The position numbers and the translations under genes were made by a program. 64,000 bases of DNA from a virus: IMG/VR virus record IMGVR_UViG_3300025647_000019, positions 29,965-93,964 of that record. One strand, written 5' to 3'. Position 1 is the first letter of the stretch. Every line of letters begins with the position of its first letter. Shown piece by piece: positions 2,626 to 54,054 of the stretch. The notes beneath the pieces are model-generated. The model saw only the letters and a program-made list of their open reading frames with translations, did no database searches and was not told where the DNA came from.

Positions 2626-3042
2626 ATGTATAAACTTGACATAAATAAAGGCGATATAATCCTTCGTGGAAAATATAGAAATAAAAAAGAAGTTGTTAAA
2701 ACCTTTGGTCACGATGATAAAGGCCAACCAACAATAAATGGAAAGAGAATTCTCAATTTTAACATTGAGAAATTATTGCCTAAGAAAGAGATTAAAGAGA
2801 TAATGAAAAAATCAGAATTAAAAGAACTAATTAAAGAGTGTCTTCTTGAAGAAGAATATTCTAAGCGAACTGTTGAATCATTCGCCGAAGATATTTTCTT
2901 TGAAATCTATGAAATTGGAAAATCAAATGGATACCCAGTTCAAGAACATGGATTTTTAGAAGAAACATATAAAGCATTGGTTAAGTATATCAATAAAAAG
3001 CTTAAACAAGGCAAGATAAGTAGAGGTGGATTTGGTAGATGA
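2626..3042 (+). CDS. Two-part small phage protein: RGKYRNKK domain plus targeting-like peptide and helical tail
   Basis: 138 residues in two blocks. Residues 1-55 (DIILRGKYRNKK, then QPTINGKRIL) form a compact beta-rich domain of a type I recognise as a stand-alone small protein in many marine phages. Residue 60 is a methionine that begins a perfect copy of the shared peptide MKKSELKELIKEC; its ATG at 2803 could be a second start giving a 79-residue protein. The ORF may therefore be a fusion or two nested in-frame genes. Function unknown. Its 3' end overlaps the next gene by 4 nt. Confidence 0.6.
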   Translation: MYKLDINKGDIILRGKYRNKKEVVKTFGHDDKGQPTINGKRILNFNIEKLLPKKEIKEIMKKSELKELIKECLLEEEYSKRTVESFAEDIFFEIYEIGKSNGYPVQEHGFLEETYKALVKYINKKLKQGKISRGGFGR

Positions 3043-3365
3043 AAAAATCAGAATTGAAAACCCTCATAAAGGAATGTTTTCTTGAACTTCAAGAAGACCG
3101 TCTTCTTGAAGAATATGACGATCCTTCATTAGCATATTCAAAAAAAGAGCTAAAGAGTATCTTAAAAGATATTGATCAAATTTGGAAGCTAATATCAAGA
3201 ATGGATAAATCAATAAAGGGAGCATTTAGACCGGGACAAGCTGGAACGACATTACAATGGGATAAATTGTATGATACAGTTGGAAGTAAATATTTTGAAT
3301 CAGTAAGATATGCTCTTGAGGATTTTCAAGAGTCCGTTAAAAAAGCTTTAAAGGAAATTAAATGA
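3039..3365 (+). CDS. Small protein with capsid-targeting-like N-terminus
   Basis: 108 residues. It begins MKKSELKTLIKECFLELQ, a member of the repeated N-terminal peptide family of this phage, followed by a highly charged helical body (two likely long helices around residues 30-60 and 75-105). No known domain recognised. It overlaps both neighbours by 4 nt (ATGA), so it is coupled to the morphogenesis operon. A head-internal or assembly role is inferred from the peptide and the location only. Confidence 0.6.
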   Translation: MKKSELKTLIKECFLELQEDRLLEEYDDPSLAYSKKELKSILKDIDQIWKLISRMDKSIKGAFRPGQAGTTLQWDKLYDTVGSKYFESVRYALEDFQESVKKALKEIK

Positions 3366-6382: not shown

Positions 6383-6685
6383 ATGAAAAAGTCTGAATTA
6401 AAAGAAATTATTAAAGAATGCATTCTTGAAGAAGCTAAAGAAGAAGATGATGCTCAATTTGACTATGGATATTTGGCTGATGTTTTTTCGAATATATGTT
6501 CATATGGAATTGATAAATTCGGAAATAGAGAATTAAAAAGCGAATACGATGCCCGTTTTAAAGTGAAGAGTATTGACAGTGTAGGGGGATCTGGGGCTGG
6601 CTCAAAGTCTGCACTTAATGTAAAAGTATCTACCCCAAGGGGAGATAAAGTAATTAAGATAGAAATAAAAGCACCAAGAAAATAA
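6383..6685 (+). CDS. Small protein with capsid-targeting-like N-terminus
   Basis: 100 residues starting MKKSELKEIIKECILEEAKE, another copy of the shared N-terminal peptide with an I-L-E-E end compatible with gp21-type cleavage. The remaining part is beta-rich at the C-terminus (ALNVKVSTPRGDKVIKIEIK) with a Gly-Ser loop. Good ribosome site (TTTAGGAGAATAA). Function unknown; placed between sheath and baseplate chaperone. Confidence 0.6.
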   Translation: MKKSELKEIIKECILEEAKEEDDAQFDYGYLADVFSNICSYGIDKFGNRELKSEYDARFKVKSIDSVGGSGAGSKSALNVKVSTPRGDKVIKIEIKAPRK

Positions 6686-7510: not shown

Positions 7511-7685
7511 GCATAAACAATATTTCTATGAGGAATTATTTAGTTTAGCATATTATGGGAAAATAAGTATTTCAGAAGCTCAGAGAATGCCTATTTATAC
7601 AAGACAATGGTTTATTCAAAGAGTAAAAAAAGAACTAAAAGAACTAAAGAAAAAACAAGATCAAGCTTTAAAGGGTAAAAAATGA
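7449..7685 (+). CDS. +1-frame extension of the gp26-like chaperone (probable frameshift product)
   Basis: In the +1 frame relative to the gp26-like gene. The meaningful sequence begins near FFGLTAEHKQYFYEELFSLA and runs through MPIYTRQWFIQRV to a lysine-rich coiled end, a pattern I associate with C-terminal parts of tail assembly chaperones (helix, MPI, then R-x-W-F). Its residues before 7490 read like a shadow frame, and no start codon lies at proper distance from GAGGAGG (7463-7469): TTG 7470 is immediately adjacent and GTG 7449 is upstream of it. The likely product is therefore a gp26-like fusion made by a shift at TTT TTT T, comparable to the G/GT arrangement of lambda. A stand-alone small protein is the alternative. 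Confidence 0.55.
   Translation: MDLSTRRLCLFRRAFFGLTAEHKQYFYEELFSLAYYGKISISEAQRMPIYTRQWFIQRVKKELKELKKKQDQALKGKK
7490..7496 (+). other. Candidate +1 (or -2) frameshift site, seven T
   Basis: The frame-0 codons AGC TTT TTT TGG contain seven consecutive T, allowing tRNA-Phe to re-pair after slipping one base forward into TTT GGC. GAGGAGG (7463-7469) is 20 nt upstream; internal anti-rRNA pairing is known to stimulate some bacterial shifts, though usually at shorter spacing. Zero-frame stop is 12 nt downstream at 7508. Confidence 0.5.
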
Positions 7686-8008
7686 AAAAATCAGAATTGA
7701 AAGAGCTTATTAAAGAGTGTATTTCAGAATTAAATGAAGGTAAAAAATATATTGAACCTGAGGATCTTTCGGAATTTGTTCGTGAAAAAAATATATTTAA
7801 AAAAATATATGGAAAGGATTTTCAATGGTCCGATAAAATTGAAAGAGATGGAATAGGAAAATCTCAAGAAAAGAAAATGGAAAAATGGATTATGAATAAA
7901 ACGGATCTACCTGAAAATCCCAAAAGATATGACCCCGATAATTGGGAAGATTATTTTATGCAATTTTGGGAAGATTTTTATTATCGTCAAAACCCCGACT
8001 ATCTATAG
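7682..8008 (+). CDS. Small protein with capsid-targeting-like N-terminus
   Basis: 108 residues beginning MKKSELKELIKECISELNEG, the best conserved version of the shared N-terminal peptide; ISELNE offers an I/L-x-E cleavage context. The rest is charged with an aromatic-rich C-terminus (NWEDYFMQFWEDFYYRQNPD). No recognised domain. Its ATG overlaps the stop of the chaperone extension, so it is coupled. Confidence 0.6.
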   Translation: MKKSELKELIKECISELNEGKKYIEPEDLSEFVREKNIFKKIYGKDFQWSDKIERDGIGKSQEKKMEKWIMNKTDLPENPKRYDPDNWEDYFMQFWEDFYYRQNPDYL

Positions 8009-29781: not shown

Positions 29782-30101
29782 GAACACGTTGGGATGAATT
29801 AAGAAGAATGGCTGGAGGAATTAATATTCCAGGTCCAGAAAGAATGGGTAAAACCTTTGTTGAACTTTTTTGTCATTGTGATTTTGAACCTTTTGGTCGT
29901 GCCTCTGAAATGTGGGAATATGTTTGGACATTACATTTTCCAGAAGCACCAAGAATGTGGAAATCAACAAAAGGTTGGGTTCAATCTCACACTCATCCAT
30001 ATGGAATGCAATTCAGGGGAAGATCAGTTGAAGATGTTATGAAACAAGCAGAAGATTTTTTTGGTGAATTGGAGAAACAAAATGACAGACCCAAGAAGTA
30101 A
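29778..30101 (+). CDS. Unknown Trp/His-rich small protein
   Basis: 107 residues rich in Trp, His and Met (WEYVWTLHFPEAPRMWKSTK, THPYGMQFRGRSVED). It begins in the last codons of the polymerase gene and ends inside the dCMP deaminase. No recognised family. Conserved-looking aromatic clusters suggest a small folded domain. Function unknown. Confidence 0.5.
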   Translation: MRTRWDELRRMAGGINIPGPERMGKTFVELFCHCDFEPFGRASEMWEYVWTLHFPEAPRMWKSTKGWVQSHTHPYGMQFRGRSVEDVMKQAEDFFGELEKQNDRPKK

Positions 30102-36679: not shown

Positions 36680-37779
36680 GTGAATCGTTATTAAAAATCT
36701 TAGTATTAGAAGGCGGAGCAGTTTTTAAAACTACTATATCCGCAGTTCCAAAAGAATATTTAAATCCAACAATGAATAAAGCTCTTAAAGATTCAGGGTT
36801 TGGGAAAATAAGATCAAACCCTGTTGGAAATATCTCAAAACCTTTTTTAGGAGATGTTGATATTGCTGTTGAATTTGAAGATCTTGTTAAATTATTTGGA
36901 TCAACTAAAGATAAAAAAGACTTTTGGGAAAAAGCTGATATCTTTATGAAGAAACAAAAAATTAAAGACTATTCAATAAATAAGGGTCTTCAACAGATTC
37001 ACGTTCTTTCTCCCTTAGTTGATAAAAAAGGAAAACAATTACCTGCTGTTAATAAAGAAGGAAAAGAAATTGGAGGAGAAGGATGGGTTCAAATTGATTT
37101 TATGATTGGTCGAGTAAAATTCATGAAAGACATGCTATCAGGAACAGTTGATAGCAAATATAAAGCAGCATGGAGAAATCAATTATTAGTCGATATTCTA
37201 GCTAATACCTCAACTGGTGATGGGGATGTAAAACATAAATTCCAGGTTAATCGTAAAGACGGATTACAATACGTTCGTTATATAGATCAAAACGGTAAAA
37301 AGAAGAAATTAAATGTTAAGACAGTATCTACTGATATGGATGAAATTTCTTCTTATATATTCGGGAAAAAATATAAATGGAAAGACGTTGATACATTTGA
37401 AAAAATGTGGAAAGCATTTAAAGGATCCGAATTTAGGTGGGCAAGTAAACGTAAGCAAATAATTAAAACCTTTACCGATGCTTTAAAAAGACAAAAAATG
37501 GAATTGCCTTCTGAATTAAATGAAGTAGAAAAAACTATGAATAAGAAACAAATTACTGAAATTGCTGAAATCATTTTAGAAGAACTTGAAAATAAAAATG
37601 AAAAACTCATTAAGCTTATAAAATCTTATGAAGAAAGATTAGATTCTAGTGAATTAAATGAAGAAATTTTTATTGAAGAAACTGAAAGGGCTCTTAGAGA
37701 ACACTTGGGATTCCATGATGATACTGAACTAACAAAAGCTGAATCGGAATTAGAGCGTATGAGGAGATTAATGGGATGA
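36676..37779 (+). CDS. Pol beta-type nucleotidyltransferase-like protein
   Basis: 367 residues. A Pol beta superfamily core: LGDVDIAVEF (Asp60, Asp62) and third carboxylate in VQIDFMIG (Asp141), with a helical C-terminal half. The N-terminus MSESLLKILVLEGG ends in L-x-E followed by GG, like a cleavable capsid-targeting peptide. The C-terminus has a shared type helix (MNKKQITEIAEIILEELE, from residue 289). Overlaps the NMNAT/ligase gene by 4 nt, suggesting a common pathway. Could add nucleotides to RNA or protein; not a known family to me. Confidence 0.55.
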   Translation: MSESLLKILVLEGGAVFKTTISAVPKEYLNPTMNKALKDSGFGKIRSNPVGNISKPFLGDVDIAVEFEDLVKLFGSTKDKKDFWEKADIFMKKQKIKDYSINKGLQQIHVLSPLVDKKGKQLPAVNKEGKEIGGEGWVQIDFMIGRVKFMKDMLSGTVDSKYKAAWRNQLLVDILANTSTGDGDVKHKFQVNRKDGLQYVRYIDQNGKKKKLNVKTVSTDMDEISSYIFGKKYKWKDVDTFEKMWKAFKGSEFRWASKRKQIIKTFTDALKRQKMELPSELNEVEKTMNKKQITEIAEIILEELENKNEKLIKLIKSYEERLDSSELNEEIFIEETERALREHLGFHDDTELTKAESELERMRRLMG

Positions 37780-38159
37780 AAAAGAAAGAATTAATTGAGC
37801 TAATAAGGGAAGTAATTTATTCTGAACTTCCAGATATTATTTCAGAAATCAAAGCTTCTTCTTATGAAAATAATGAATATTTAAAAGAAGAAGACGTTTT
37901 TGATGGTCAATCAGTTCGGGAACATATAAGATCTGAATTTAGAAAAGTAAATCCAATTCAAGAAAGACCTAAAGCCCCAAAAGGTAAAAAAATGTTAGTT
38001 GATTATAGAGGAGAGAAAGTTACTTCTGGATTGGGAGTAATGGATTGGTTTAAAGGACAAGTAGCAGAAGGAAAAACTAGACCAACTGGTGAATTTAAAC
38101 ATACTGATGATCAAATGAAAAATTTTATGGAACAAAAATTTGGAAAGAAGATAAAATGA
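37776..38159 (+). CDS. Small protein with shared helical N-terminus
   Basis: 127 residues. Starts MKKKELIELIREVIYSELPD, a member of the MKKSELKELIKEC family. The rest is charged with a basic C-terminus (MEQKFGKKIK). No domain recognised. 4-nt overlaps on both sides, so it is coupled to the nucleotidyltransferase gene. Confidence 0.55.
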   Translation: MKKKELIELIREVIYSELPDIISEIKASSYENNEYLKEEDVFDGQSVREHIRSEFRKVNPIQERPKAPKGKKMLVDYRGEKVTSGLGVMDWFKGQVAEGKTRPTGEFKHTDDQMKNFMEQKFGKKIK

Positions 38160-42828: not shown

Positions 42829-43483
42829 AATATTATTTGCTTTTGCAACAAGATCCAGACCCGAAAGAGCTTTATTTCTTTTGAAACAGTATCAAAAATA
42901 TATTCACGATAAAGAGAATTCCATAATTCATTTATCGTGTGATGTTGATGATGAAACAATGAACAATGAATCTATTATTGAGTTATTAAAAACTTTTAAT
43001 GGGGTTAAATATTTTTTCGGGGAAAATAAAACAAAACTTGATGCTGTGAATGCTAATATATCTGGATATGACTGGGATATTGTAGTTGGGCTTCAAGATG
43101 ATTTATACCCTTTAGTTCCTGGATTTGATAATATTATAAGAGAAGAAATGAAAAATGCTTTTGATCCAGATTTAGATGGGGTTTTATTTTTATTTGATGG
43201 AGCTTTACAAATTTGCACTACTCCTTGTATGGGAAGACGCTTTTATAATCGATTTGGATACTTAAATTATCCGGGATATAAATCTTTATTTGCCGACAGT
43301 GAATTAACTGAAGTTTCAGAAAGACTTGGAAAACTTAAAAGAGTAAATAAAGTTTTATTAGAGCATAAACATCCAACAAGAGCTAATATCCCTTATGATG
43401 AATTATATCGAAGAAATGATTCTTTTTGGGATGAAGATCAAGAATTATTTGAAAAAAGAAAGGAAAATAATTTTTATTTATGA
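42818..43483 (+). CDS. Glycosyltransferase-like (GT-A fold, small)
   Basis: 221 residues starting at TTG 42818 with AAGGAG upstream. N-terminal LFAFATRSRPERALFLLKQY and IHLSCDVDDETM; VGLQDDLYPLVPGFD occupies the DxD place; the rest is charged. Layout is that of a small glycosyltransferase A domain, catalytic residues less certain. Likely the third transferase of the cluster. Confidence 0.6.
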   Translation: MPYKILFAFATRSRPERALFLLKQYQKYIHDKENSIIHLSCDVDDETMNNESIIELLKTFNGVKYFFGENKTKLDAVNANISGYDWDIVVGLQDDLYPLVPGFDNIIREEMKNAFDPDLDGVLFLFDGALQICTTPCMGRRFYNRFGYLNYPGYKSLFADSELTEVSERLGKLKRVNKVLLEHKHPTRANIPYDELYRRNDSFWDEDQELFEKRKENNFYL

Positions 43484-44217
43484 ATATTTTGGTTATAGGT
43501 GATAATTGTTTAGATCGACACATATATGGAGAATGTAAAAGGCTTTGTCCTGAAGCTCCGGTTCCCGTTTTTACCCCAATAAGAACTGTAGAAAATTACG
43601 GAATGGCCGGAAATGTTTCTAGAAATTTAAAGGCTTTAGGCAATAAAGTTGAAGAGCTTATTCCCCTTAATGTTCCAGTAAAAACTAGATATATAGATGA
43701 TCATACCAATCAAATGTTTTTAAGAGTTGATGAAGATGATTATTGTTCTTGGGTAGAATTTAGATTGGACGAAATAGATCCTAAAAAATATGATGCAATA
43801 GTAATTGCTGATTATGACAAGGGGTTTTTAACCAAACAAGACATATTATTTATTTCCCGACTACACGATATTACATTTTTAGATACCAAAAAGATCTTAG
43901 GTTCCTGGGCAGAAAGACTGTCTTATATCAAGTTAAACTCCCAAGAATATAAACAAAACCTTGATATTCTAAAGCAAAATGAAACTTTAATGGATAAAGT
44001 AATAGTAACCAAAGGTCCCGAAGGTTGCGTGTTTAAAAATGAAATTTATCCAGTTAAAAAAGTTGATGTAAAAGATCTTTCTGGAGCTGGAGATACATTC
44101 ATGGCTGGATTAGTTTCTCAATACATTCAAAATGGAAATCATATAGAAGACGCAATTAAATTTGCAAATGAATGTGCAACAATTGTTGTTCAAAAAAGAG
44201 GAGTTGCTTGTTTGTGA
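43480..44217 (+). CDS. Heptose-7-phosphate kinase-like (RfaE/HldE kinase domain, PfkB family)
   Basis: 245 residues, PfkB kinase: GDNCLDRHIYGECKRLCPEA followed by PVPVF, the RfaE/HldE opening; MAGNVSRNLKALG; and the catalytic DLSGAGDTFMAGL with the Asp base. In bacteria this domain phosphorylates D-glycero-D-manno-heptose 7-phosphate at C1. Shorter than the bacterial kinase half (about 310). It points to heptose-like activated sugar synthesis, or to a related ketose/sugar kinase. No adenylyltransferase domain is fused. Confidence 0.78.
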   Translation: MNILVIGDNCLDRHIYGECKRLCPEAPVPVFTPIRTVENYGMAGNVSRNLKALGNKVEELIPLNVPVKTRYIDDHTNQMFLRVDEDDYCSWVEFRLDEIDPKKYDAIVIADYDKGFLTKQDILFISRLHDITFLDTKKILGSWAERLSYIKLNSQEYKQNLDILKQNETLMDKVIVTKGPEGCVFKNEIYPVKKVDVKDLSGAGDTFMAGLVSQYIQNGNHIEDAIKFANECATIVVQKRGVACL

Positions 44218-44714
44218 TTATACGAAGATATCTTGATAAGAAAATACAAGGGGTAGAAATTATCCACAGGAAAGTAATGCATGATCATAGGGGATGGAAT
44301 ATTGAAAGATTCAATGAAGGGGAATTTGATATAAAATTTGTAACCGATAGTATTTCTAAATCAAAATCCCAGACCTTCCGGGGTTTACATGGGGATTCAA
44401 AAACTTGGAAATTAATCGAATGTTTATTTGGAAGATTTTGGCTGATTATATACGATAACAGAAAAGATTCTCCAACATATAAAAATTGGACTACTTCAAT
44501 GTTAACTGGATTTAGTGGAGATCAGATTTTATTACCCCCTGGGGTTGCTAATGGTCACTATTGTTTTGAAGATTGTTTATTCTCTTATAAAATGTCTCAT
44601 CCATATACACAAATAGAAGATCAATTTACAATAAAATGGCATGATGAAAATTTATCAGAGGTTCCTTGGCCATGGGAAATAGAACCAAAATATATTTCAG
44701 AAAGGGATAGATAA
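44214..44714 (+). CDS. dTDP-sugar 3,5-epimerase-like (RmlC-type cupin)
   Basis: 166 residues. GVEIIHRKVMHDHRGWNIER, QTFRGLHGDSKTWKLIECL (the F-R-G-L-H signature), then FSGDQILLPPGVANGHYCFE. This is the RmlC cupin fold, which epimerises C3/C5 of 4-keto sugars. Starts at GTG overlapping the previous stop with GAGGAG upstream. Sugar nucleotide cannot be told. Fits with the sugar dehydratase downstream. Confidence 0.78.
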   Translation: MIIRRYLDKKIQGVEIIHRKVMHDHRGWNIERFNEGEFDIKFVTDSISKSKSQTFRGLHGDSKTWKLIECLFGRFWLIIYDNRKDSPTYKNWTTSMLTGFSGDQILLPPGVANGHYCFEDCLFSYKMSHPYTQIEDQFTIKWHDENLSEVPWPWEIEPKYISERDR

Positions 44715-45331
44715 TGGAAAAAAATAAAAGAGATCCCAAAAGGTTTGATACCGAATTATTTGGGTGGGTAAACACTAATAAAGAAGATGATTATTCTTCT
44801 GAAACTTGGGCATATATCATGTTAAATAAAGAATACATCAAAGGCACTGTAATGGATATTGGATGTGCAGTTGGCCTTCATGTTATTCCTCTTGCAACTA
44901 TATTCGAAGATTTAGATTTGGTATATGGGATTGATATCAATCAAGAAGCTATAGATTGTTCTAATAGTAGACTACCCGAGGAACTTAAAGATAAAGTAAA
45001 ATATTATAAAGTTAATGTTTTAGATTTAGAAAATTATCAAGAAGAAAGTTCTATTGATACTATGGTAAGTTTTCACACTATGGAACATTTTCCAGAAGTG
45101 GATTTAGAAGATATATTTAGTCAGATAAAAAGAGCTTTAAAAAATAATGGACACATAATAATTATTATACCTTATGAACATGCTCATAATGATGGGAATC
45201 ATAAAACCTTTTGGAATGAAACTTCATTGTCAGAATTTATGGAAAAAAATGGTTTTGAAACAATTAAATGTAACAAAATCCAAAATAACAATCTTGCTGG
45301 AATATTTAAAAACAATAAGGAAACAATATGA
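44714..45331 (+). CDS. SAM-dependent methyltransferase
   Basis: 205 residues, class I Rossmann methyltransferase: VMDIGCAVGLHVIPLA (motif I), YGIDINQEAIDC (motif II, acidic), DTMVSFHTMEHFPEVD (motif IV), then NNGHIIIIIP. Probably methylates a sugar or another small molecule in the operon. Confidence 0.8.
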   Translation: MEKNKRDPKRFDTELFGWVNTNKEDDYSSETWAYIMLNKEYIKGTVMDIGCAVGLHVIPLATIFEDLDLVYGIDINQEAIDCSNSRLPEELKDKVKYYKVNVLDLENYQEESSIDTMVSFHTMEHFPEVDLEDIFSQIKRALKNNGHIIIIIPYEHAHNDGNHKTFWNETSLSEFMEKNGFETIKCNKIQNNNLAGIFKNNKETI

Positions 45332-46263
45332 AAAGAGTTTTAATAACTGGTGGTGCTGGTTATATCGGAAATGTTTTAGTTGAATTATTATTAGATAAGG
45401 GATATCATGTATTAGTTTTAGATTCTCTTCTTTTTAATCAAACAGAATTGATTAGATTTTCCAATAATCAAAATTTTGAATTTATATATGGGGATGTTAC
45501 TAATGAAGATCTTTTATATAAGTATACACAGTGGGCTGATATTATTATTCCATTAGCTGCTTATGTTGGAGCCCCCATTTGTAATAATAATTACATCATG
45601 GCCAAAGCAGTAAATCAAGACCACGTTGTTAATATTTCTAGAACTGCCGGAAGTAGAAAAGTTATTTATCCAAATACTAATTCTGGCTATGGGATTTCTT
45701 CTAGTGATGAAATTTGTACAGAAGAAACTCCACTTCACCCTATCAGTCATTATGGAAAAACAAAAACAGCAGCAGAAGAAGTAATTTTAGCAAACGATCA
45801 GGTTTCATTAAGACTTGCTACTAATTTTGGTATATCCCCGAGAATGAGAATGGATTTATTAGTTAATGATTTTGTTTATAGAGCAGTAACAGAAAGATCT
45901 ATTGTTTTATTTGAATCTCATTTTAAGAGAAATTATATTCACGTTAAAGATGTTGCTGCAACATTTTTATTTGCAATTGAAAATTATGATAGAATGAGGG
46001 GAAGAGCTTTTAATCTGGGATTATCAAATGCGAATCTAAATAAATTAGAACTTTGTGAAAAAATAAAATACTATATTCCAGAATTAATTATCATTGAAAG
46101 CCCAATTGGTAAAGATCCAGATAAACGAGATTATATTGTTTCAAATGAAAGATTGGAAAAATTGGGATGGAAACCTGAATATAGTTTAGATAATGGTATT
46201 ACTGAATTAAAAAGGGCATATGAAATTATTAAAAATACTAGAAAAAGGTTTGGTAACGTATGA
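45328..46263 (+). CDS. NAD-dependent sugar epimerase/dehydratase
   Basis: 311 residues, short-chain dehydrogenase fold: GGAGYIGNVLVELLL (NAD site), PLAAYVGAP, active-site Y-x-x-x-K in HYGKTKTAAEE, and NYIHVKDVAATFLFAIENYD. Acts on a nucleotide-sugar, with 4-epimerase or related activity possible. 4-nt overlap with next gene. Confidence 0.85.
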   Translation: MKRVLITGGAGYIGNVLVELLLDKGYHVLVLDSLLFNQTELIRFSNNQNFEFIYGDVTNEDLLYKYTQWADIIIPLAAYVGAPICNNNYIMAKAVNQDHVVNISRTAGSRKVIYPNTNSGYGISSSDEICTEETPLHPISHYGKTKTAAEEVILANDQVSLRLATNFGISPRMRMDLLVNDFVYRAVTERSIVLFESHFKRNYIHVKDVAATFLFAIENYDRMRGRAFNLGLSNANLNKLELCEKIKYYIPELIIIESPIGKDPDKRDYIVSNERLEKLGWKPEYSLDNGITELKRAYEIIKNTRKRFGNV

Positions 46264-47807
46264 AAGATTGTTTATTTATAGCTCCTAGAATTTCTAAAGC
46301 TACATATCAGGAACTAGCTGAAAATTTTACTGCAATAGAAACCCCAACTTGGTCATTACTTTTAGCAGAATCTTGTCGATCTATCGGCTTTGATGTTTCA
46401 ATTTTAGATATGAATGCTGAAAGATTAACTGATGGACAAATGTTATTAAGGATCTCAAATGAAGATCCCAGATTTATTTGTTTCCCAGTTTATGGATCAA
46501 ATCCAAATTCAGGATCTCTTATGATGGGCGATGCAATTTTATTAGCAGAAACTATTAAAGAGACTTTTCCAAATATTCCCATAATATTTGTTGGATCTCA
46601 TATGCAAGCAAGACCAAATCAAGTACTACTGGATCATAAGGGAATTGTCGATATTATTCTTACTGGTGAGGGGGTTTATGCTTTAAGGAATTTATTAAAA
46701 TTGGATTATACAGTTGGAGCCCCTGAATTATTAAATTTGGATTCTGTTAAAGGAATAGGATTTATTAAAGACGGAAATCCCTTTTTAACCCCGCCAGAAA
46801 AAATAGTTCCACAAGAAAGAATGGATATTGATCTCCCGGGATATGCTTGGGATCTTTTACCATATAAGGAGAGTCCTTTAGACTTATATAGATCTCATTT
46901 TTTCCATGCAGAATATCAACACGATAAAAGAACTCCATTTGCTGCAATTTATACATCATTGGGTTGCATGTTTAAATGCTCATTTTGTATGATCAATCTT
47001 ATTAATAAAAATGATAATGATTCTATTGGAGTTGCTTCAAATTATTCAGGAATGAGATTCTGGAGTCCCGAGCTTATAGCGGGAGAATTTGATAAGTTAT
47101 GGGAAATGGGGGTAAGAACAATTCGTATTAGTGATGAAATGTTTTTACTTAATAGAAAATATTATGTTCCATTGTGTGAAATGTTAAGAGATCGTGGATA
47201 TGGAGAAGAACTTCTGATGTGGGTTTATTCTCGGGTTGATACCATTAATGATAAAAGCAATCTTAAGCTTCTCAGAGACGCAGGAATTAAAATGGTTTCT
47301 TTAGGAGTTGAAAGTGGAAATAAAAAAGTTCGCTTAGAAGTTACTAAAGGAAAATTTGAAGAAGTTGATATCAAAGATGTTATTCAAAAATGTAGAGATG
47401 CAGGAATTGAACCAATGGCAAATTATATGTTTGGTCTTCCAGGGGATACTTATGAATCAATGTTAGAAACACTTCAATTATCATTGGAATTAAATACAAC
47501 AGTATGGAATGCCTATGCAGCTACAGCTTTACCTGGTAGTCAACTTTATAAAGATTGTGTAGATAAAAATATTCCTTTACCTCAAACATATAATGATTGG
47601 TCATTCTTTTCTGAAAATACTATTGGTATTCCAACAGAAGAATTAACTTCCGATCAAATTATAGAATTTAGAGATTGGGCATATCAAGTTTATCATACTT
47701 ATCCTCCATTTTTATATACAATAGAAAAGAAATACGGTAAGATAGCAAAAGAAAATATTTTGAACCAGAATAAGATTTCATTAAAAAGGAATAAAATTAA
47801 TGACTAA
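46260..47807 (+). CDS. B12-binding-type radical SAM enzyme
   Basis: 515 residues. N-terminal domain (1-150) with the alternating strands of a B12-binding Rossmann fold (FICFPVYGSNPNSGSLMM, PIIFVGSHMQARPN) but no DxHxxG; then the radical SAM core with C236-x3-C240-x2-C243 for the 4Fe-4S cluster, EMFLLNRKYY, and a GVESGNKKVRLEV segment. Such enzymes methylate unreactive carbon or phosphorus or rearrange carbon skeletons. In a sugar operon, C-methylation is attractive. B12 need is shared with the RNR. Confidence 0.82.
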   Translation: MKDCLFIAPRISKATYQELAENFTAIETPTWSLLLAESCRSIGFDVSILDMNAERLTDGQMLLRISNEDPRFICFPVYGSNPNSGSLMMGDAILLAETIKETFPNIPIIFVGSHMQARPNQVLLDHKGIVDIILTGEGVYALRNLLKLDYTVGAPELLNLDSVKGIGFIKDGNPFLTPPEKIVPQERMDIDLPGYAWDLLPYKESPLDLYRSHFFHAEYQHDKRTPFAAIYTSLGCMFKCSFCMINLINKNDNDSIGVASNYSGMRFWSPELIAGEFDKLWEMGVRTIRISDEMFLLNRKYYVPLCEMLRDRGYGEELLMWVYSRVDTINDKSNLKLLRDAGIKMVSLGVESGNKKVRLEVTKGKFEEVDIKDVIQKCRDAGIEPMANYMFGLPGDTYESMLETLQLSLELNTTVWNAYAATALPGSQLYKDCVDKNIPLPQTYNDWSFFSENTIGIPTEELTSDQIIEFRDWAYQVYHTYPPFLYTIEKKYGKIAKENILNQNKISLKRNKIND

Positions 47808-48780
47808 AAAAATATGTATAATTTTTTGTACGTGTTCAAGAAACCCAAATCAGGGAAATGCTTGGAAAATTTCAACATTGCAGAATTTATTTTCTCAGAC
47901 ATCAGAAAAATATGAATATACTTTTGTAAGTTCGGATTGTTGTTCTCATCCAGATAATAGAAATAATTTAATTAATTTCAATTTTGATGGAAGAGGTTTT
48001 GATTATATTAATCATATTGATACTCCCATATCTCTACAAATGTCATTAAATCATACAATAAAAAAAGTTCACGAAATAGATCCTCACGATTATTATATAA
48101 TGTGGAGTAGTGATACTGGATTCTTAGATCCATATGCAATTCAAAAAATTATAAACGAATTAGATAATGATGATTCAATTTTTGCCCCGGGGTGGAAATG
48201 TGATTTAGCTGGTCCTCCATTTGGAGAAGCTCACAAATATAAACCAGATGTAAAGAAAACTATTTTGCCAATTGGTTATGGATTTAATGGAATATTCGTA
48301 GGATTTTCAAAATATCATGTTGAAAAATATAATTTAAAACCATATTCTGATGTTGTTTTAACTAATTGCGGAGAATGTATGTTAACATATCAAGCTGCTG
48401 CAATAAAAAAACATCAATCAATTATTAATTATGTTTGCTTAGAGGAAAAAATGTGTCCCCCAGATGGATCTTCAAATCTCTTTATGGGGAGAAGGGAAAA
48501 TTTAGTAAGAACATTAAATCTTCGAGGTCCTTCTGGTGAATTAACTTTATGGGATAATTCGAAATATAATTTTAAAGAAATGGTTGAAGGGGGATTAAAA
48601 TATGGATTAGGATATCAAGAAATGGATGCAAATCAATGGTGGTTACATGATCCAAATTGTTATGATGAAAATTATTTCTGTACAAATGATGATTTGTATC
48701 ATTACATAAAAAACAATTGGTATATAAAAAAAGAAGATTTTGATTATGATGCAAATCATGGTGAATTTAGGAGGTTATAA
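47800..48780 (+). CDS. Putative glycosyltransferase (GT-A fold)
   Basis: 326 residues. CIIFCTCSRNPNQGNAWK opening, YYIMWSSDTGFLDPYAI (DxD-like), IFAPGWKCDLAGPPF and VGFSKYHVEKY. The order fits a GT-A type transferase; the C-terminal half is Trp/Tyr-rich and unfamiliar. Overlaps neighbours. Acceptor unknown. Confidence 0.55.
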   Translation: MTKKICIIFCTCSRNPNQGNAWKISTLQNLFSQTSEKYEYTFVSSDCCSHPDNRNNLINFNFDGRGFDYINHIDTPISLQMSLNHTIKKVHEIDPHDYYIMWSSDTGFLDPYAIQKIINELDNDDSIFAPGWKCDLAGPPFGEAHKYKPDVKKTILPIGYGFNGIFVGFSKYHVEKYNLKPYSDVVLTNCGECMLTYQAAAIKKHQSIINYVCLEEKMCPPDGSSNLFMGRRENLVRTLNLRGPSGELTLWDNSKYNFKEMVEGGLKYGLGYQEMDANQWWLHDPNCYDENYFCTNDDLYHYIKNNWYIKKEDFDYDANHGEFRRL

Positions 48781-49322
48781 TGGTAATTAGAAAAGCTTTG
48801 ATATTAACTTATGATAAATTTCAGGATAATGAAGTTCTTTATCCTTATTATCGATTACAAGAGGCGGGATTTAAGGTAGATGTTTCTGCTGAAAAGATTG
48901 GACCTATTTTTGGAATCAATGGATGTAAAATGATGGCAACAGTAGAAGCAGATAAAATTAATCCTGATGATTATGATTTCCTTTGTATTCCCGGAGGAGT
49001 TAAAGCTTTAGAAAAGCTTCGTCAAGTTTCAGAAGCAATTGAATTTACTAGAAAATTTCATGACGATGGAAAAATTATTGCTTCAATTTGTCATGGGGCT
49101 CAAATACTAATTTCAGCTGGGGTTTGTAAAGGAAAGAAAATTTCTGGATATTATAGCATCAAAGACGATATTATTAATGCTGGTGGAACTTATATAGATG
49201 AAGCTTGGGCTCGAGACGGAAATGTTATTTCTTCACCTCATTATGATTTTATGCCGGAATGGTTAGCCATAGCTTTGAAGATGTATGATACATGGAGTCT
49301 TGTTAACAATGACAGATCATAA
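48780..49322 (+). CDS. DJ-1/PfpI family protein
   Basis: 180 residues, full PfpI fold: ALILTYDKFQDNEVLYPYYR, IPGGVKALEKLR, and the nucleophile elbow SICHGAQILISAG (Cys). Family members act as deglycases, glyoxalases or amidotransferase-like hydrolases. The final His (PHYDFMPEW) is kept. In a glycan operon it may remove reactive dicarbonyls or act on sugar carbonyls; unknown. Confidence 0.82.
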   Translation: MVIRKALILTYDKFQDNEVLYPYYRLQEAGFKVDVSAEKIGPIFGINGCKMMATVEADKINPDDYDFLCIPGGVKALEKLRQVSEAIEFTRKFHDDGKIIASICHGAQILISAGVCKGKKISGYYSIKDDIINAGGTYIDEAWARDGNVISSPHYDFMPEWLAIALKMYDTWSLVNNDRS

Positions 49323-49977
49323 AAATGTAATTGTCAAAAAGCCCTGGGGAAAAGAATATCTCATTTTCGAAAATGATGATGTTGGTATTTGGGCTTTACA
49401 TATTAATAAGGGTGAGAGTACTTCATTGCACTGTCACCCTAAAAAAAATACGGGACTGATTATATTAAAGGGGGAAGTAGAAGTTTCCTTTTTAAATGAT
49501 TCAAGAATTCATGTTCCAATGGACAAAATAATGATCCGAAGAGGATTATTTCATTCTTCAAAAGCTATAACTGATGCAGTCATCCTTGAAATAGAAAGTC
49601 CAAAAGATAAATTGGATCTAGTTAGATTTACAGATAATTACGGAAGAAAATATAAACCCTATGAAGGAAAAGATCAAGAAATAGAAAGAACTGATGAGTT
49701 ATGGATTGAAGTTCCTGAAGATCACATAGTTAGCTGTAAATCGGCTTTTGGTAAATTATTTGTAACTGAAAGAACTAATACGGGTAGAATTCCCCTTACA
49801 ACTCACGAATTAGACATAATAATAATTTGTGAAGGAGGAATTATTGATCAGAAGACTGGATGGTATGTTGCTGCTCCGGGTGATGTTATAACTTCAAAGG
49901 TTATGAATATATTATTAGAAAGATTTAATCCAACTCAATCATTAGTTACTATAAAAATTCCAGTCGGGAAAGGTTAA
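49309..49977 (+). CDS. Cupin-domain protein (phosphomannose isomerase-like)
   Basis: 222 residues. VKKPWGKEYLIFENDDVGIW and STSLHCHPKKNTGLIILKGE form a cupin (His-x-His, Glu), like type II mannose-6-phosphate isomerases; a second cupin-like part (IPLTTHELDIIIICEGG) follows. ATG 49309 is chosen over an ATG 24 nt upstream. Likely sugar isomerase or sugar-binding enzyme. Confidence 0.7.
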   Translation: MTDHKNVIVKKPWGKEYLIFENDDVGIWALHINKGESTSLHCHPKKNTGLIILKGEVEVSFLNDSRIHVPMDKIMIRRGLFHSSKAITDAVILEIESPKDKLDLVRFTDNYGRKYKPYEGKDQEIERTDELWIEVPEDHIVSCKSAFGKLFVTERTNTGRIPLTTHELDIIIICEGGIIDQKTGWYVAAPGDVITSKVMNILLERFNPTQSLVTIKIPVGKG

Positions 49978-49978
49978 T

Positions 49979-50770
49979 ATGTTTGAACAAATTTGTTATA
50001 ATAGATTTTTTGAATTTGAAGTAGCAAAAGCTATTGAAGAAAAAAGAATTCAGATACCAGTTTATTTATCAGCAGGACAAGAATCAATTCCAGTTGGGGT
50101 TCATTCAGTATATCCGGATGCTGCTATTTTTGCACAGCACAGATGTCATTCATGGTATCTTACTTATGGAGGTTCTCCTGAAAAATTACGTGATGAACTC
50201 TTGGGATTAGAAACCGGATGTGCAAAAGGAATGGGGGGATCTGCTTCTATTCACGATCCCGATATTCCTATGTTTGGACATAGTGGGCTAATGGGGGATC
50301 AAGTTCCTATTGCTGTTGGTTATGCTCTTGAATCTCAAAAAACAACTATAGCAGTTATTGGAGACGGGGCAGTAGAAGAAGATTATGTTCTTGCTTCATT
50401 AGGTTTTGCTGCAACTAAAAACTGTCCAATATTATTTGTAGTTGAAGATAATAATTTAGCTATTCTTACTGAAAAGAAAGTAAGAAGGTCTTGGAGTATC
50501 GTAGATGTTGCTAAAGGATTTGGATTGAATTCAGCTCATTGTTCAGATGATCCAACTGAAATAAAACATACTTTAGAAATTTTAAAATTACCTGCATTAA
50601 TCAATGTTCATACACATAGACATTTATGGCATGCTGGATCTGGAAATGATGGTCCTCCTGAATTTAATAGATATGAAGATATTAAATCTAGATATAGATT
50701 GGGGTTTCTTGGTGATGAAATGGAACGTAATGTTATAAATGAAGTGAGGGAATTATGGCAAAAACAGTAG
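49979..50770 (+). CDS. TPP-dependent dehydrogenase E1 alpha-like subunit
   Basis: 263 residues: YLSAGQESIPVGVHSVYPD, AQHRCHSWYLTYGG, GMGGSASI, and the TPP motif GDGAVEEDYVLASLGFA ending VVEDNN (128-159). This matches the alpha subunit of pyruvate/acetoin-type E1 but is shorter (usual 320-360). The beta subunit follows, overlapping by 16 nt, so a heterotetramer is expected. No E2 or E3 gene is here, which argues against an oxidative dehydrogenase complex and for a C2 transfer on a small molecule. Confidence 0.82.
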   Translation: MFEQICYNRFFEFEVAKAIEEKRIQIPVYLSAGQESIPVGVHSVYPDAAIFAQHRCHSWYLTYGGSPEKLRDELLGLETGCAKGMGGSASIHDPDIPMFGHSGLMGDQVPIAVGYALESQKTTIAVIGDGAVEEDYVLASLGFAATKNCPILFVVEDNNLAILTEKKVRRSWSIVDVAKGFGLNSAHCSDDPTEIKHTLEILKLPALINVHTHRHLWHAGSGNDGPPEFNRYEDIKSRYRLGFLGDEMERNVINEVRELWQKQ

Positions 50771-51666
50771 CTGAAACCATTAGGGATACCACAAGATCTC
50801 ATTTGGAAAAAGGCGGAAAATTATTTGGGCAATGTGTAACTGCTGTTGGTTGGGTCGGAGGAACAATTCCTGAAATGACTGAAGAAGAAGGAATTGTAGA
50901 ATTAGCCCTATCAGATTCTTCCAATCCGGGAATGCCAATTGGTTGTGCCTTAGCTGGTAATCGACCAATTTATGTAGTTCGATATCAGGGCTTTTTATGG
51001 TATAATGCTGTATCATTGATTAATTATGCAGGCAAGTCAAAAGAAATGTGGGATGTTCCTTGCCCGGTTTTTATTCGAGCAATTGGAATGGAAGGAAGCA
51101 TAGGTCCAGTTGCAACTTCTTCTGAACATAGCATGATTATGAGAAAATCTGGTATACCTGTATTTGCTCCAATGACCCCAAAGGAATGGTTAAAAGTTTG
51201 GAATTATTATCTTGAGCATGATGATCCAGTATTTTGTTCAGAACATAGAAAAAGTTTTCAATTAACCGATGAGGGAGATTTATCATATATAAAGTTTTAT
51301 AAGGATGCAGATATAACTTTATTTCCAATTTCTGCAGCTAGATTATCAACTAAAGAAGCTGTTGAAGCTTTATACAATGATAAAAAAATAAAATGTAATG
51401 TTTATCCAATTGTTCAATTAAAGCCTTTTGATATTGGTTATGCTAGCAGAGGATTAATTACCCAAAAAGCTTTAGTTATAGATTCTGACAATGAAATTTG
51501 TGGAGCATCAAAATCTATTGCACACGATATTATGCTTCATACAAGAATTCCAACTCATACTTTAGGGTTAGAAGATCGAACAGCAGGGTTTGCCAAACAT
51601 TTAGACAATGGAACTCCGGATGCTAAAAAGATTTATGATAAGGTGGTTTCTCTTGTTAACTATTAA
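50755..51666 (+). CDS. TPP-dependent dehydrogenase E1 beta-like subunit
   Basis: 303 residues, transketolase-type pyrimidine domain and C-terminal domain: NPGMPIGCALAGNRPIYVVR, RAIGMEGSIGPVATSSEHSM, GIPVFAPMTPKEW, and a C-terminal region on ALVIDSDNEICGASKSIAHD. The beta partner of the previous gene. E1 beta contributes the catalytic Glu that activates TPP; its exact residue cannot be placed with certainty here (EEEGIVELAL). See the finding on branched sugars. Confidence 0.8.
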   Translation: MAKTVAETIRDTTRSHLEKGGKLFGQCVTAVGWVGGTIPEMTEEEGIVELALSDSSNPGMPIGCALAGNRPIYVVRYQGFLWYNAVSLINYAGKSKEMWDVPCPVFIRAIGMEGSIGPVATSSEHSMIMRKSGIPVFAPMTPKEWLKVWNYYLEHDDPVFCSEHRKSFQLTDEGDLSYIKFYKDADITLFPISAARLSTKEAVEALYNDKKIKCNVYPIVQLKPFDIGYASRGLITQKALVIDSDNEICGASKSIAHDIMLHTRIPTHTLGLEDRTAGFAKHLDNGTPDAKKIYDKVVSLVNY

Positions 51667-52045
51667 CGATATACCAACGGGATTTGGTAATCCTGAAAAA
51701 ATAATAGCAATAGATTTTGATGGAGTAATTCATGATTCATATAATGGATATGGTGATGGAACTTGTTATGGAGAACCCATTCCGGGAGCTATTGATGCTA
51801 TAATTGAATTGTCTGAAAATTATGATATAGTTATTTTTACCGCTAAAGCAAAACCAGATCGGCCATTGGTTAATGGTAAAACTGGAACTGAGTTAGTTTG
51901 GGAATGGCTAAAGGAATATAATATTGATATGTTTATTGCAAAAGTTACCTCTGAAAAACCTAGAGCAAAATATTATATTGATGATAATGCAATAAGATTT
52001 GAAACGTGGAATCAAACAATGAAGGAATTAAAAAATGGAAATTAA
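51653..52045 (+). CDS. HAD-family phosphatase-like protein
   Basis: 130 residues: IIAIDFDGVIHDSYNG (D-x-D nucleophile), IVIFTAKAKPDRP (motif II Thr), TSEKPRAKYYIDDNAIRF (motif III Lys and IV Asp). Small HAD without cap, related to phage/NagD-like hydrolases. TTG 51653 with AAGGTGG six bases upstream is the chosen start. May remove phosphate from a sugar phosphate. Confidence 0.8.
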   Translation: MLTINDIPTGFGNPEKIIAIDFDGVIHDSYNGYGDGTCYGEPIPGAIDAIIELSENYDIVIFTAKAKPDRPLVNGKTGTELVWEWLKEYNIDMFIAKVTSEKPRAKYYIDDNAIRFETWNQTMKELKNGN

Positions 52046-53231
52046 ATATCCTCTTGCTAAACAAACAATAACAAATGAAGAAATAGATGCTCTTATTGAA
52101 TGGCTAAAAACATATCCCCGTTTAACAATGGGAGAAATTACCAAGGAGTTTGAAAGAAAATGGGCAGAATATATTGGAACAAAATATGCCGTATTTGTAA
52201 ACTCTGGATCATCAGCAAACTTACTAATGATATATGCGTTACTGGTGACTGGGAGATTAAAGAAAGGTGATAAAGTTCTTGTTCCAGCAGTTGGCTGGGG
52301 AACAACAGTGGCACCACTGATTCAACTGGGTCTTGAACCAATTATGGTAGATGTGGATCCTTTTACATTTGGTATAGATGTTTATAAATGCGAAAGAGAA
52401 TTAGAAAAAAATCCAGGAATTAAAGCAATATTATTTGTTGATGTTCTTGGAGTTCCTGCCAATATAAAAGAATTAAAAGAGTTGGCTTCTAATAGAAAAT
52501 TATTATTGCTTGAAGATTCGTGTGCAGCATTAGGATCAAAATATGATAACAAAATGATTGGATCCTTTGGGGATATTTCTACATTTTCATTTTATTTTGG
52601 TCATCAACTTTCTACAATTGAGGGTGGAATGATCAATACAAACAATGAAGAAATTTTTGAAGCTTTAATTATGTCAAGAAGCCATGGATGGGGAAAAGAA
52701 TTATCTCAAGAAACATATGATCATTTGATTTCTGAAAACGATATTGATGACTTTCATAAACCATTTACATTTTTTATTCCTGGATTTAATTTAAGAGGAA
52801 CAGATCTTCAAGCAAAAATAGGATTAGGGCAAATAGAAAAAGCAGAATGGGTTGCAAATAGAAGACATGAAAATCATAAAAGATATATGAAAAATCTCGA
52901 TAGATATTGTGATTTCCAATGTCCAGTTCTTGGCCCAGTTGAAGATAGAGTTTCAAGCATTTCATTTGGGTGTTTAGTAAGAGAAAATTCAACCAGAAAA
53001 GAAATAGTTAGAAGATTAGTGGACAATGGAATTGAAACAAGATTATTCAGTGCTGGAAATTTGGGGCTTCATCCATTCTGGAAACAGTATAATAAAGATT
53101 TTTCAAATTTTCAAGTAGCAAACTTAATTCATTCAAATGGATTTTTTCTACCGAATTATCCAGAGCTTACATTAGATGAGATTGATTTTATTTCATCAGT
53201 TGTTATAGAAGGGGTTACTCATGAGCATTAA
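52035..53231 (+). CDS. PLP-dependent sugar 3-dehydratase (ColD/DegT-like)
   Basis: 398 residues of the DegT/DnrJ fold: NSGSSANLLMIYAL, VPAVGWGTTVAPLIQLGLEP, EDSCAALGSKYDNK (Asp161 for the pyridine N), and SFYFGHQLSTIEGGM. At the place of the Schiff-base Lys there is His190. This His is the hallmark of ColD (GDP-4-keto-6-deoxymannose 3-dehydratase) and related dehydratases, which remove the C3 hydroxyl of 4-keto sugars instead of transaminating them. So a 3,6-dideoxy sugar is expected. Activity is inferred from this residue. Confidence 0.85.
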   Translation: MEIKYPLAKQTITNEEIDALIEWLKTYPRLTMGEITKEFERKWAEYIGTKYAVFVNSGSSANLLMIYALLVTGRLKKGDKVLVPAVGWGTTVAPLIQLGLEPIMVDVDPFTFGIDVYKCERELEKNPGIKAILFVDVLGVPANIKELKELASNRKLLLLEDSCAALGSKYDNKMIGSFGDISTFSFYFGHQLSTIEGGMINTNNEEIFEALIMSRSHGWGKELSQETYDHLISENDIDDFHKPFTFFIPGFNLRGTDLQAKIGLGQIEKAEWVANRRHENHKRYMKNLDRYCDFQCPVLGPVEDRVSSISFGCLVRENSTRKEIVRRLVDNGIETRLFSAGNLGLHPFWKQYNKDFSNFQVANLIHSNGFFLPNYPELTLDEIDFISSVVIEGVTHEH

Positions 53232-54054
53232 ACCAAAAACTTATCCATCAGAAATTATAGACATAGAATTATCAGGACATAAATTTAAATTTGTAGATTG
53301 GAAGCATCCATCACAAGGAGGGCCTCATTTTGACGTTGGAATGTTTGAATTTATAAAATCAATAGTTAAACCCGGAGATGTTGTAATAGACATTGGAACT
53401 CATGTTGGGGTAAAAACTCTAATGTATGGTTTAGCTGCTGGGAAAAAGGGCGCTGTTTATGGTTTTGAACCAAATCCATATGTTTTCGAGCCTTTTAAAA
53501 AATCTTGTGAATTAAATAGGGATATTATAAATGTTATTCCCGTTTGTGCAGCTATAACTGAAGAACCCGGGAACTTTATTTTTCATTATTCAGACGAAGG
53601 ATATTATAATGGAGGATTTGCTTCTAAAACAGATTATGGAGTTGGAGGATGTGGCCATGTTGTCCCAATAGAAGTTGAAGGAATACGATTTGATGATTAT
53701 TTTTTCGGGGTTGAAGGGAAAGAAAAAATTAAATTATTCAAGGTTGATACTGAGGGATATGATCTATCGGTTTTAAAATCCGTTAAATCTTTATTAGAAG
53801 AAGTCAAACCCATTATTCAATCAGAATTATTTTTAATGTTATCGGATGAAGAAATTCAGAATCATTTAAAATTCCTTGACGATTTGGGTTATGTTAATTA
53901 CTTTTTCCCCGATGAAAAACAATCCGTCTATGGTAAAACCAATATTTATAATTTAAGGGATAAAAATTTCACTTGTAATGAATGGCAGCATGCAAAAAGG
54001 GTTTTCAAAGGCAAAAATTTAATTTCAGTTCATAAGAGTCAATTAGAAGCTTAA
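53221..54054 (+). CDS. FkbM-family methyltransferase
   Basis: 277 residues: VIDIGTHVGVKTLMYGLAAG (SAM motif I), YGFEPNPYVFEPFKKS, IKLFKVDTEGYDLSVL (the FkbM signature), and VKPIIQSELFL. FkbM-type enzymes O-methylate sugars and other small molecules. It is the last gene of the glycan operon; overlaps the dehydratase by 11 nt. Confidence 0.85.
   Translation: MSIKPKTYPSEIIDIELSGHKFKFVDWKHPSQGGPHFDVGMFEFIKSIVKPGDVVIDIGTHVGVKTLMYGLAAGKKGAVYGFEPNPYVFEPFKKSCELNRDIINVIPVCAAITEEPGNFIFHYSDEGYYNGGFASKTDYGVGGCGHVVPIEVEGIRFDDYFFGVEGKEKIKLFKVDTEGYDLSVLKSVKSLLEEVKPIIQSELFLMLSDEEIQNHLKFLDDLGYVNYFFPDEKQSVYGKTNIYNLRDKNFTCNEWQHAKRVFKGKNLISVHKSQLEA

Follow-up and report, generated by a model that had tools for sequence, protein, structure and literature searches.

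Yersiniose A, a sugar of lipopolysaccharide, is synthesised with YerE, a single-chain, AHAS-like flavoprotein of the decarboxylase superfamily that acts on a CDP-sugar, while ColD is the 3-dehydratase of GDP-4-keto-6-deoxymannose; dehydratases of the ColD type act on 4-keto nucleotide sugars and take L-glutamate as their amino donor. E1-type pairs transfer C2 units from pyruvate onto keto sugars (PMC12247030): the alphaKADH2 pairs, which include AviB1/B2, Pau11/12, the aldgamycin enzyme and KbDH-alpha/beta, have known or proposed roles in attaching C2 branches to keto sugars (PMC12247030, PMC4425429, PMC4753412) and have been placed mainly in specialised natural products (PMC12247030). In the described C. 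jejuni clusters, a 4,6-dehydratase acts first, the C3-dehydratase second, and a C4-reductase then reduces the ketone (PMC10680097, PMC10440746). Cj1427 (whose structure paper is cited in PMC10680097) together with the HS:5 C3-dehydratase yields GDP-3-deoxy-4-keto-heptose in vitro, and GDP-3-deoxy-heptoses were presented as novel in-vitro products (PMC10680097). A literature search returned no paper on phage GDP-heptose genes, and nothing similar appeared in the titles, abstracts and term counts by which work on SAR11 surface-sugar regions and on E1 genes in phages was judged.

We analysed a window of 64,000 nucleotides (positions 29,965 to 93,964 of the IMG/VR virus record IMGVR_UViG_3300025647_000019), in which a conserved, ordered set of genes, all on the + strand, occupies positions 43480-54054. 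Its function is best explained, judging by homology, as a predicted GDP-heptose modification pathway. Within this set, the ThDP-binding E1alpha (49979..50770, 263 aa; Pfam E1_dh, 5e-21), the pyrimidine-binding E1beta (50755..51666, 303 aa; Pfam Transket_pyr, 2e-8), a small HAD-superfamily phosphatase-like protein (51608..52045; weak NCBIfam HAD-IIIA match, 1.6e-4) and a DegT/DnrJ protein (52035..53231; Pfam, 1e-78; ColD entries 2gms/3b8x/3gr9, 4.7e-70) are encoded by real, co-directional and overlapping genes. This is the arrangement described in a sequence-only reading of the same DNA, an E1 pair close to a ColD-type dehydratase with a phosphatase between them, and it is confirmed here. The first ~16 codons of the HAD-like ORF overlap E1beta and are absent from its homologues; the motifs DFDGVIH, FTAK and YIDD are conserved in 27 E1-adjacent homologues. 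The gene of an FkbM-family methyltransferase (53221..54054; Pfam Methyltransf_21, 1.4e-16), a possible later decorator of the sugar, overlaps that of the dehydratase and lies outside the conserved core.

The pathway-defining genes that flank this group at 43480-49977 had been overlooked in the sequence-only reading. They begin with a kinase of the PfkB family (43480..44217; PfkB Pfam) that is similar to the kinase part of HldE, a heptose-7-phosphate kinase, and whose top solved relative is the D-beta-D-heptose 7-phosphate kinase 4e84 (1.6e-15). An RmlC-fold protein follows (44172..44714, with the true start probably at ~44226), a likely GDP-4-keto-heptose 3- and/or 5-epimerase (8db5, 1.2e-24; 7m14), for which both of these entries, the first being the C. 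jejuni GDP-D-glycero-4-keto-D-lyxo-heptose-3,5-epimerase, rank above dTDP-rhamnose epimerases. Directly upstream of E1alpha lie two genes that form the E1 core with it: a DJ-1/PfpI-family protein (48780..49322; Pfam, 2.4e-42; PH1704 1g2i, 1.8e-37) and a bicupin-like protein resembling the C-terminal part of PMI (49285..49977; weak Cupin_2/GMP_PMI matches). In the bicupin, H49, H51 and H90 are invariant in an alignment of homologues and are of metal-site type; its profile search found no solved relative.

Both E1 subunits have the E1 fold and the residues of the ThDP/Mg site. In E1alpha, R55, H57, D129, N158 and H218 are conserved (129 members and alignments with human PDH E1alpha), and the AlphaFold model reaches a pLDDT of 86.8. 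The E1beta profile aligns with 1w85 and 3exe, the E1beta model matches human PDH E1beta with a TM of 0.86, and H125 is kept in 117 of 123 family members. Where PDH E1beta has its ThDP-activating Glu, the phage protein carries Asp54 (codon 50914..50916). This Asp is found in 123/123 members, whereas Glu stands there in 1w85, 3exe and four second-tier E1beta homologues of the same sugar islands; the profile alignment with 1w85/3exe and the Glu of these second-tier homologues rule out an alignment artefact. Given that the compared E1 relatives have Glu here, activity is not guaranteed. An E2 (PF00198) is absent from the whole 93,964-base contig, as the earlier reading had indicated; the pair might, in principle, work with an E2 supplied by the host. 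A keto-sugar setting and the lack of an E2 of their own are also traits of alphaKADH2 enzymes, and a sugar-directed E1 pair without an E2 of its own is supported.

The DegT protein carries His190 in place of the PLP lysine (codon 52602..52604; alignment and motif test), the very residue number given from the sequence alone, and among DegT proteins in E1 loci the His type outnumbers the Lys type 99:4. It lacks the [2Fe-2S] motif C-X57-C-X1-C-X7-C, which marks the CDP-sugar E1/RfbH type. Its assignment as a predicted ColD-type (His-type) 3-dehydratase is thus supported: it shares with ColD the fold, the His at the lysine position and the absence of the Fe-S motif, but is about one third identical to it, and its predicted substrate is a heptose.

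What precedes the dehydratase is indicated by the SDR (45328..46263), which resembles a Cj1427-type GDP-heptose C4-dehydrogenase. Its best solved relatives are 6vo6/6vo8 (7.6e-111), which we take to be Cj1427, with 58% identity to 6vo6 over 304 residues, and the next best reaches only 4e-21. The Ser-Glu/Asp-Glu motif of 4,6-dehydratases is missing, with NTNSGYG at that site; the contig yielded no second recognisable sugar-nucleotide SDR, and none of its ORFs was identified as a 4,6-dehydratase. Because the Cj1427-type SDR is the sole recognised 4-keto-forming enzyme and is accompanied by a heptose-kinase-like PfkB protein and an epimerase-like protein, the predicted acceptor is GDP-3-deoxy-4-keto-heptose. 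The earlier proposal therefore survives as a sugar-directed E1 pair with a His-type 3-dehydratase, whereas its 3,6-dideoxy sugar from GDP-4-keto-6-deoxymannose gives way, in this phage, to the predicted product of a GDP-heptose enzyme. No C4-reductase-like second SDR was seen in the window phage, so the C4 ketone must have some other fate.

The same E1 family occurs in ~80 viral and 48 bacterial loci, the latter mostly SAR11, and was revealed by the E1alpha scan of viral contigs alone, the close-relative scans with E1beta and DegT having given no matches there; GenBank phages and plasmids held only distant E1 relatives, several of them in records suggestive of contamination by bacteria. Across 37 viral lineages, 22 had a Cj1427-like enzyme alone, 8 a 4,6-dehydratase-like enzyme alone and 2 had both (p=0.001), while DegT and E1 were retained as the 4-keto-forming enzyme was exchanged, a pattern that would follow if the 3-deoxy-4-keto product is the substrate of E1. 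Some related phages have a GMD-like 4,6-dehydratase instead of the Cj1427-like SDR, and for those with a 4,6-dehydratase a 3,6-dideoxy acceptor is plausible. A B12-binding radical SAM protein (46260..47807; Pfam/NCBIfam), which may C-methylate the same sugar, is associated with the Cj1427-type dehydrogenase over these lineages (p=4e-5).

We then considered fully flanked loci (i.e., those in which E1beta has 7.5 kb or more of sequence on either side; 47 viral, 29 bacterial). The DJ-1/PfpI and bicupin genes, which nearly always adjoin E1, were its most constant partners, each present in 46/47 viral and 25/29 bacterial loci, and a kinase (PfkB or HddA) was found in 43/47 and 26/29, respectively; bacterial homologous loci have HddA, a GHMP heptose-7-P kinase, instead of the PfkB kinase, and GmhA, HddC and an HddC-GmhB fusion also occur in bacterial E1 loci. 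A His-type DegT accompanied E1beta in 46/47 viral loci, the median separation being 1.9 kb, which rules out chance adjacency. In 9 of the 29 bacterial loci no His-type DegT lay within reach, and since five of these nine have a kinase and an SDR, the dehydratase is not obligatory in bacteria.

Among 148 SAR11-family genomes, the Cj1427-type SDR was found in 10 of 12 E1beta-positive vs. 17 of 136 negative genomes (p=4e-7), in all ten cases within 9 kb of E1beta, and DegT matches in the His-type score range in 11/12 vs. 38/136 (p=2e-5). When only SDR-positive genomes were compared, DegT no longer separated the two classes (10/10 vs. 13/17, p=0.26), so a requirement of E1 for the 3-deoxy product does not follow from the SAR11 numbers by themselves. 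The E1-DegT association in SAR11 may be secondary to the SDR, and surface-sugar genes are clustered in islands, which inflates co-occurrence; the either/or of 4-keto-forming enzymes in phages is therefore the stronger argument.

Taken together, the chance that a C4-branched 3-deoxy-heptose is made from GDP-heptose via SDR, DegT and E1alphabeta is, in our estimation, about even. The kinase would help to make heptose bisphosphate, the SDR would oxidise C4 of GDP-heptose, and the His190 enzyme would remove the C3 hydroxyl to give GDP-3-deoxy-4-keto-heptose, which the RmlC-like protein might epimerise; these steps are predicted by homology with published in-vitro precedent, strong for SDR and dehydratase and weaker for the kinase. 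By analogy with antibiotic pathways, E1alphabeta would then decarboxylate a 2-oxo acid (most likely pyruvate) on ThDP and add the acyl carbanion to the C4 ketone, leaving a C2 (or longer) branch and a tertiary alcohol. PfpI and the bicupin would have either the donor or the branched product as their substrate, and the product would finally be transferred onto the surface of the host or onto a glycan of the phage. Compared with C. jejuni GDP-heptose modification (Cj1427, Cj1430 and the HS:5/HS:11 C3-dehydratase), the phage shares the C4-dehydrogenase, an RmlC-fold epimerase and a His-type PLP 3-dehydratase, but it combines dehydrogenase and dehydratase in one natural locus and adds a ThDP enzyme pair to them (PMC10680097, PMC10440746). 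By their descriptions, alphaKADH2 enzymes are likewise two-subunit, PDH-E1-like ThDP enzymes of keto-sugar pathways; however, theirs lie in antibiotic clusters and act on TDP-/UDP-derived hexoses or pentoses, or after glycosyl transfer, whereas the phage system belongs to phage and Gram-negative surface-sugar loci, with a predicted GDP-heptose, Asp for Glu and constant PfpI and bicupin partners. With YerE it would share the addition of a ThDP-bound acyl carbanion to a 3-deoxy-4-keto nucleotide sugar at C4, once a 3-dehydratase has acted, but it is a two-subunit enzyme of E1 type, not a single-chain flavoprotein, and its predicted substrate is a GDP-sugar.

Several other explanations bear on the same genes. 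It is possible, though we lean against it, that E1alphabeta, PfpI and bicupin form a separate sub-pathway of the same island (e.g., for an unusual acyl group, ketose or acid decorating the glycan) and leave the 3-dehydratase product untouched. The most tightly linked genes are those of PfpI, cupin, E1alpha and E1beta; HddA, DegT-His and SDR make up a second block, which many SAR11 genomes also have without E1, and several bacterial E1 loci lack DegT-His. The near-universal presence of DegT-His in fully flanked viral loci, and the retention of DegT and E1 when the 4-keto-forming enzyme is exchanged, speak against such a separation. A yersiniose-like, C2-branched 3,6-dideoxyhexose made in this phage from GDP-4-keto-6-deoxymannose is improbable, given that the contig ORFs include no 4,6-dehydratase and that kinase, SDR and epimerase all indicate a heptose, even though ColD acts on that substrate and its entries are the closest solved relatives of DegT, a GMD-like enzyme takes the place of the SDR in related phages, and the host could supply the substrate.

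The unusual E1beta residue raises the further question of whether the enzyme is dead or altered, with a non-ThDP or structural role for the pair. The Asp found throughout the family where relatives have Glu would fit this, but its very invariance suggests selection over decay and the other ThDP and active-site residues (those of E1alpha and H125 of E1beta) are conserved, which makes such a role very improbable. Most improbable of all is an ordinary 2-oxo acid dehydrogenase E1 that boosts host central metabolism: the PDH E1 fold and cofactor residues agree with it, but the neighbours are constantly sugar genes, E1alpha is short at 263 aa and scores 110 bits against a PDH E1 equivalog cut-off of 394, E1beta has Asp for Glu, and besides the contig, 10 of 18 bacterial genomes carrying the family (which may be incomplete) had no E2 match.

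More broadly, and with somewhat less than even confidence, we propose that phages, SAR11 and other bacteria have in common an unrecognised pathway to C4-branched 3-deoxy-heptoses (of at least 9 carbons) from GDP-heptose, with its own class of E1-type ThDP enzyme that has Asp for the catalytic Glu and is served by DJ-1/PfpI and bicupin proteins; such a pathway would bring E1-type sugar branching to surface glycans, and to phages, for the first time. If true, E1-type ThDP sugar branching would extend from antibiotics to the cell surface of marine bacteria that rank among the most abundant, and to phages, a new class of surface sugar would be predicted, and GDP-3-deoxy-heptoses, so far novel in-vitro products (PMC10680097), would gain a natural setting. 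With its Glu-to-Asp change, the enzyme would be a natural experiment on a rule central to ThDP catalysis. Finally, phages equipped with a large part of a sugar pathway could use it to alter the surface of the host, e.g., to keep competitors out, or to decorate particles of their own.

The window encodes a predicted ThDP-dependent pair, E1alpha (49979-50770, matching E1_dh) and E1beta (50755-51666, matching a transketolase pyrimidine domain), and a PLP-dependent DegT protein (52035-53231, matching DegT_DnrJ) whose closest solved relatives are ColD structures. These genes are present as the sequence-only reading had described them, and comparison with the ColD structures bore out its placing of His190 where the PLP lysine would be. 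The pair also stands without an E2, as had been claimed, since the 93,964-base IMG/VR contig containing the window has no gene for an E2 core domain. The listed HAD (51608-52045) and RmlC (44172-44714) ORFs have first codons that overlap the preceding genes and are absent from homologues; their true starts probably lie further downstream.

Both E1 subunits gave confident structure models (that of E1beta matches human PDH E1beta with a TM of 0.86). The expected cofactor and active-site residues R55, H57, D129, N158 and H218 are kept in E1alpha, and H125 of E1beta is kept in most family members. One residue breaks this pattern: Asp54 occupies the position of the activating Glu of PDH E1beta in all 123 of the 123 aligned E1beta members, whereas second-tier homologues in the same islands have Glu there. 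Known or proposed acetyl transfer from pyruvate to keto sugars by alphaKADH2 E1-type ThDP enzymes belongs to the aldgamycin, kibdelomycin, paulomycin and avilamycin pathways (PMC12247030, PMC4425429, PMC4753412); KbDH-alpha/beta added acetyl to sugar analogues in vitro, with pyruvate as the only donor (PMC12247030). For the window pair, the donor, the branching position and the fate of the sugar are predictions.

An E1alpha scan recovered 35 further viral contigs at about 50% identity; each has E1beta after E1alpha, with PfpI and bicupin genes nearby, directly upstream in most. An E1beta profile search yielded 80 viral and 48 bacterial loci, the latter mainly in SAR11 (Pelagibacteraceae), with others in SAR116, Thiothrix-like, betaproteobacterial, Yanofskybacteria and Omnitrophota genomes. 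Among loci flanked by 7.5 kb or more on both sides of E1beta (47 viral, 29 bacterial), PfpI and a cupin were each found in 46 viral and 25 bacterial loci, a heptose kinase (HddA or PfkB) in 43 and 26, a His-type DegT in 46 and 20, and a Cj1427-type SDR in 30 and 21. We infer the roles of the PfpI, bicupin, HAD, radical SAM and FkbM proteins. Counted over the whole set of E1 loci, DegT is of the His type in 99 cases and of the Lys type in 4, these last being mostly second copies; in SAR11 the His type is common, including without E1 nearby. In some bacterial E1 loci the sugar island also contains a second E1-like alpha/beta pair of more canonical type, at about 22-37% identity, that retains the activating Glu (survey loci L039, from 1; L040, from 3; L049, 13950-16248; L069, 915-4140). 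Three short records without annotation, deposited as phages of Listeria, Staphylococcus and Salmonella (OR847274, OR850426, OR851175), have matches to E1 or DegT and resemble contaminating bacterial sequence.

The sugar assignment rests on three window genes. The SDR (45328-46263) shares 58% identity with PDB 6vo6/6vo8, which we take to be Cj1427, a GDP-heptose dehydrogenase; the RmlC-like protein most resembles GDP-4-keto-heptose epimerases, and the nearest relative of the PfkB protein is a heptose-7-phosphate kinase. Bacterial E1 loci additionally hold HddA, GmhA, HddC and an HddC-GmhB fusion. Taken together, these genes make a GDP-heptose the most likely substrate. Cj1427 with a C3-dehydratase produced GDP-3-deoxy-4-keto-heptose in vitro, and GDP-3-deoxy-heptoses were counted by the authors, whose references include the Cj1427 structure paper, among novel in-vitro products (PMC10680097). 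The general idea of the sequence-only reading, a predicted C2-branched deoxysugar, remains viable, but its 3,6-dideoxy acceptor from GDP-4-keto-6-deoxymannose is ill-suited to the window phage; that acceptor could apply to related phages that carry a 4,6-dehydratase. No C4-reductase was recognised in the window phage, which fits consumption of the ketone by C-C bond formation, although a host or later enzyme could instead reduce it.

Co-occurrence also links the E1 pair to the keto sugar. Among 148 SAR11-family genomes, the Cj1427-type SDR was found in 10 of the 12 with E1beta vs 17 of the other 136 (p=4e-7), and DegT hits of His-type strength in 11 of 12 vs 38 of 136 (p=2e-5), figures that come from phylogenetically non-independent genomes and that surface islands inflate. 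SDR and E1beta lie within 9 kb in all ten genomes with both; in one further genome (locus L051) the SDR is split across two reading frames. The phage pattern is the better argument. Viral E1 loci collapsed to 37 lineages, all with E1 by selection, of which 22 have only the Cj1427-type SDR and 8 only a 4,6-dehydratase-like one (a class set by sequence motif; the one member tested most resembles GDP-mannose 4,6-dehydratase); 2 carry both types and 5 carry none (p=0.001 for mutual exclusion), and DegT occurs in 31. The 4-ketone-making enzyme is swapped between lineages while the dehydratase and E1 pair are kept, as expected if E1 acts on a 3-deoxy-4-keto sugar whatever its C6.

Among phage lineages, a B12-binding radical SAM protein (46260-47807) goes with the Cj1427-type dehydrogenase (22/24 vs 3/13, p=4e-5), hinting at carbon methylation or a comparable reaction confined to the non-6-deoxy route. 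Elsewhere, several unrelated phage ORFs share a mostly N-terminal segment, M-K-K-S-E-L-K-x-L-I-K-E-C-x-x-E-L, that could serve in targeting or tagging (window 2626-3042, internal at residue 60, 3039-3365, 7682-8008 and 37776-38159; survey locus L165, 10722-11183 and 11129-12331; a similar one at window 6383-6685). Since genes for a thymidylate-synthase-family protein and for ThyX are both present in the phage (54886-55581 and 58329-59072), one of these enzymes may make a modified pyrimidine.

We found no paper describing the module in the open-licence literature, judged mostly on titles and abstracts. The chemistry itself is already known; the predicted novelty lies in the use of an E1-type pair by phages and SAR11 to branch a surface heptose.
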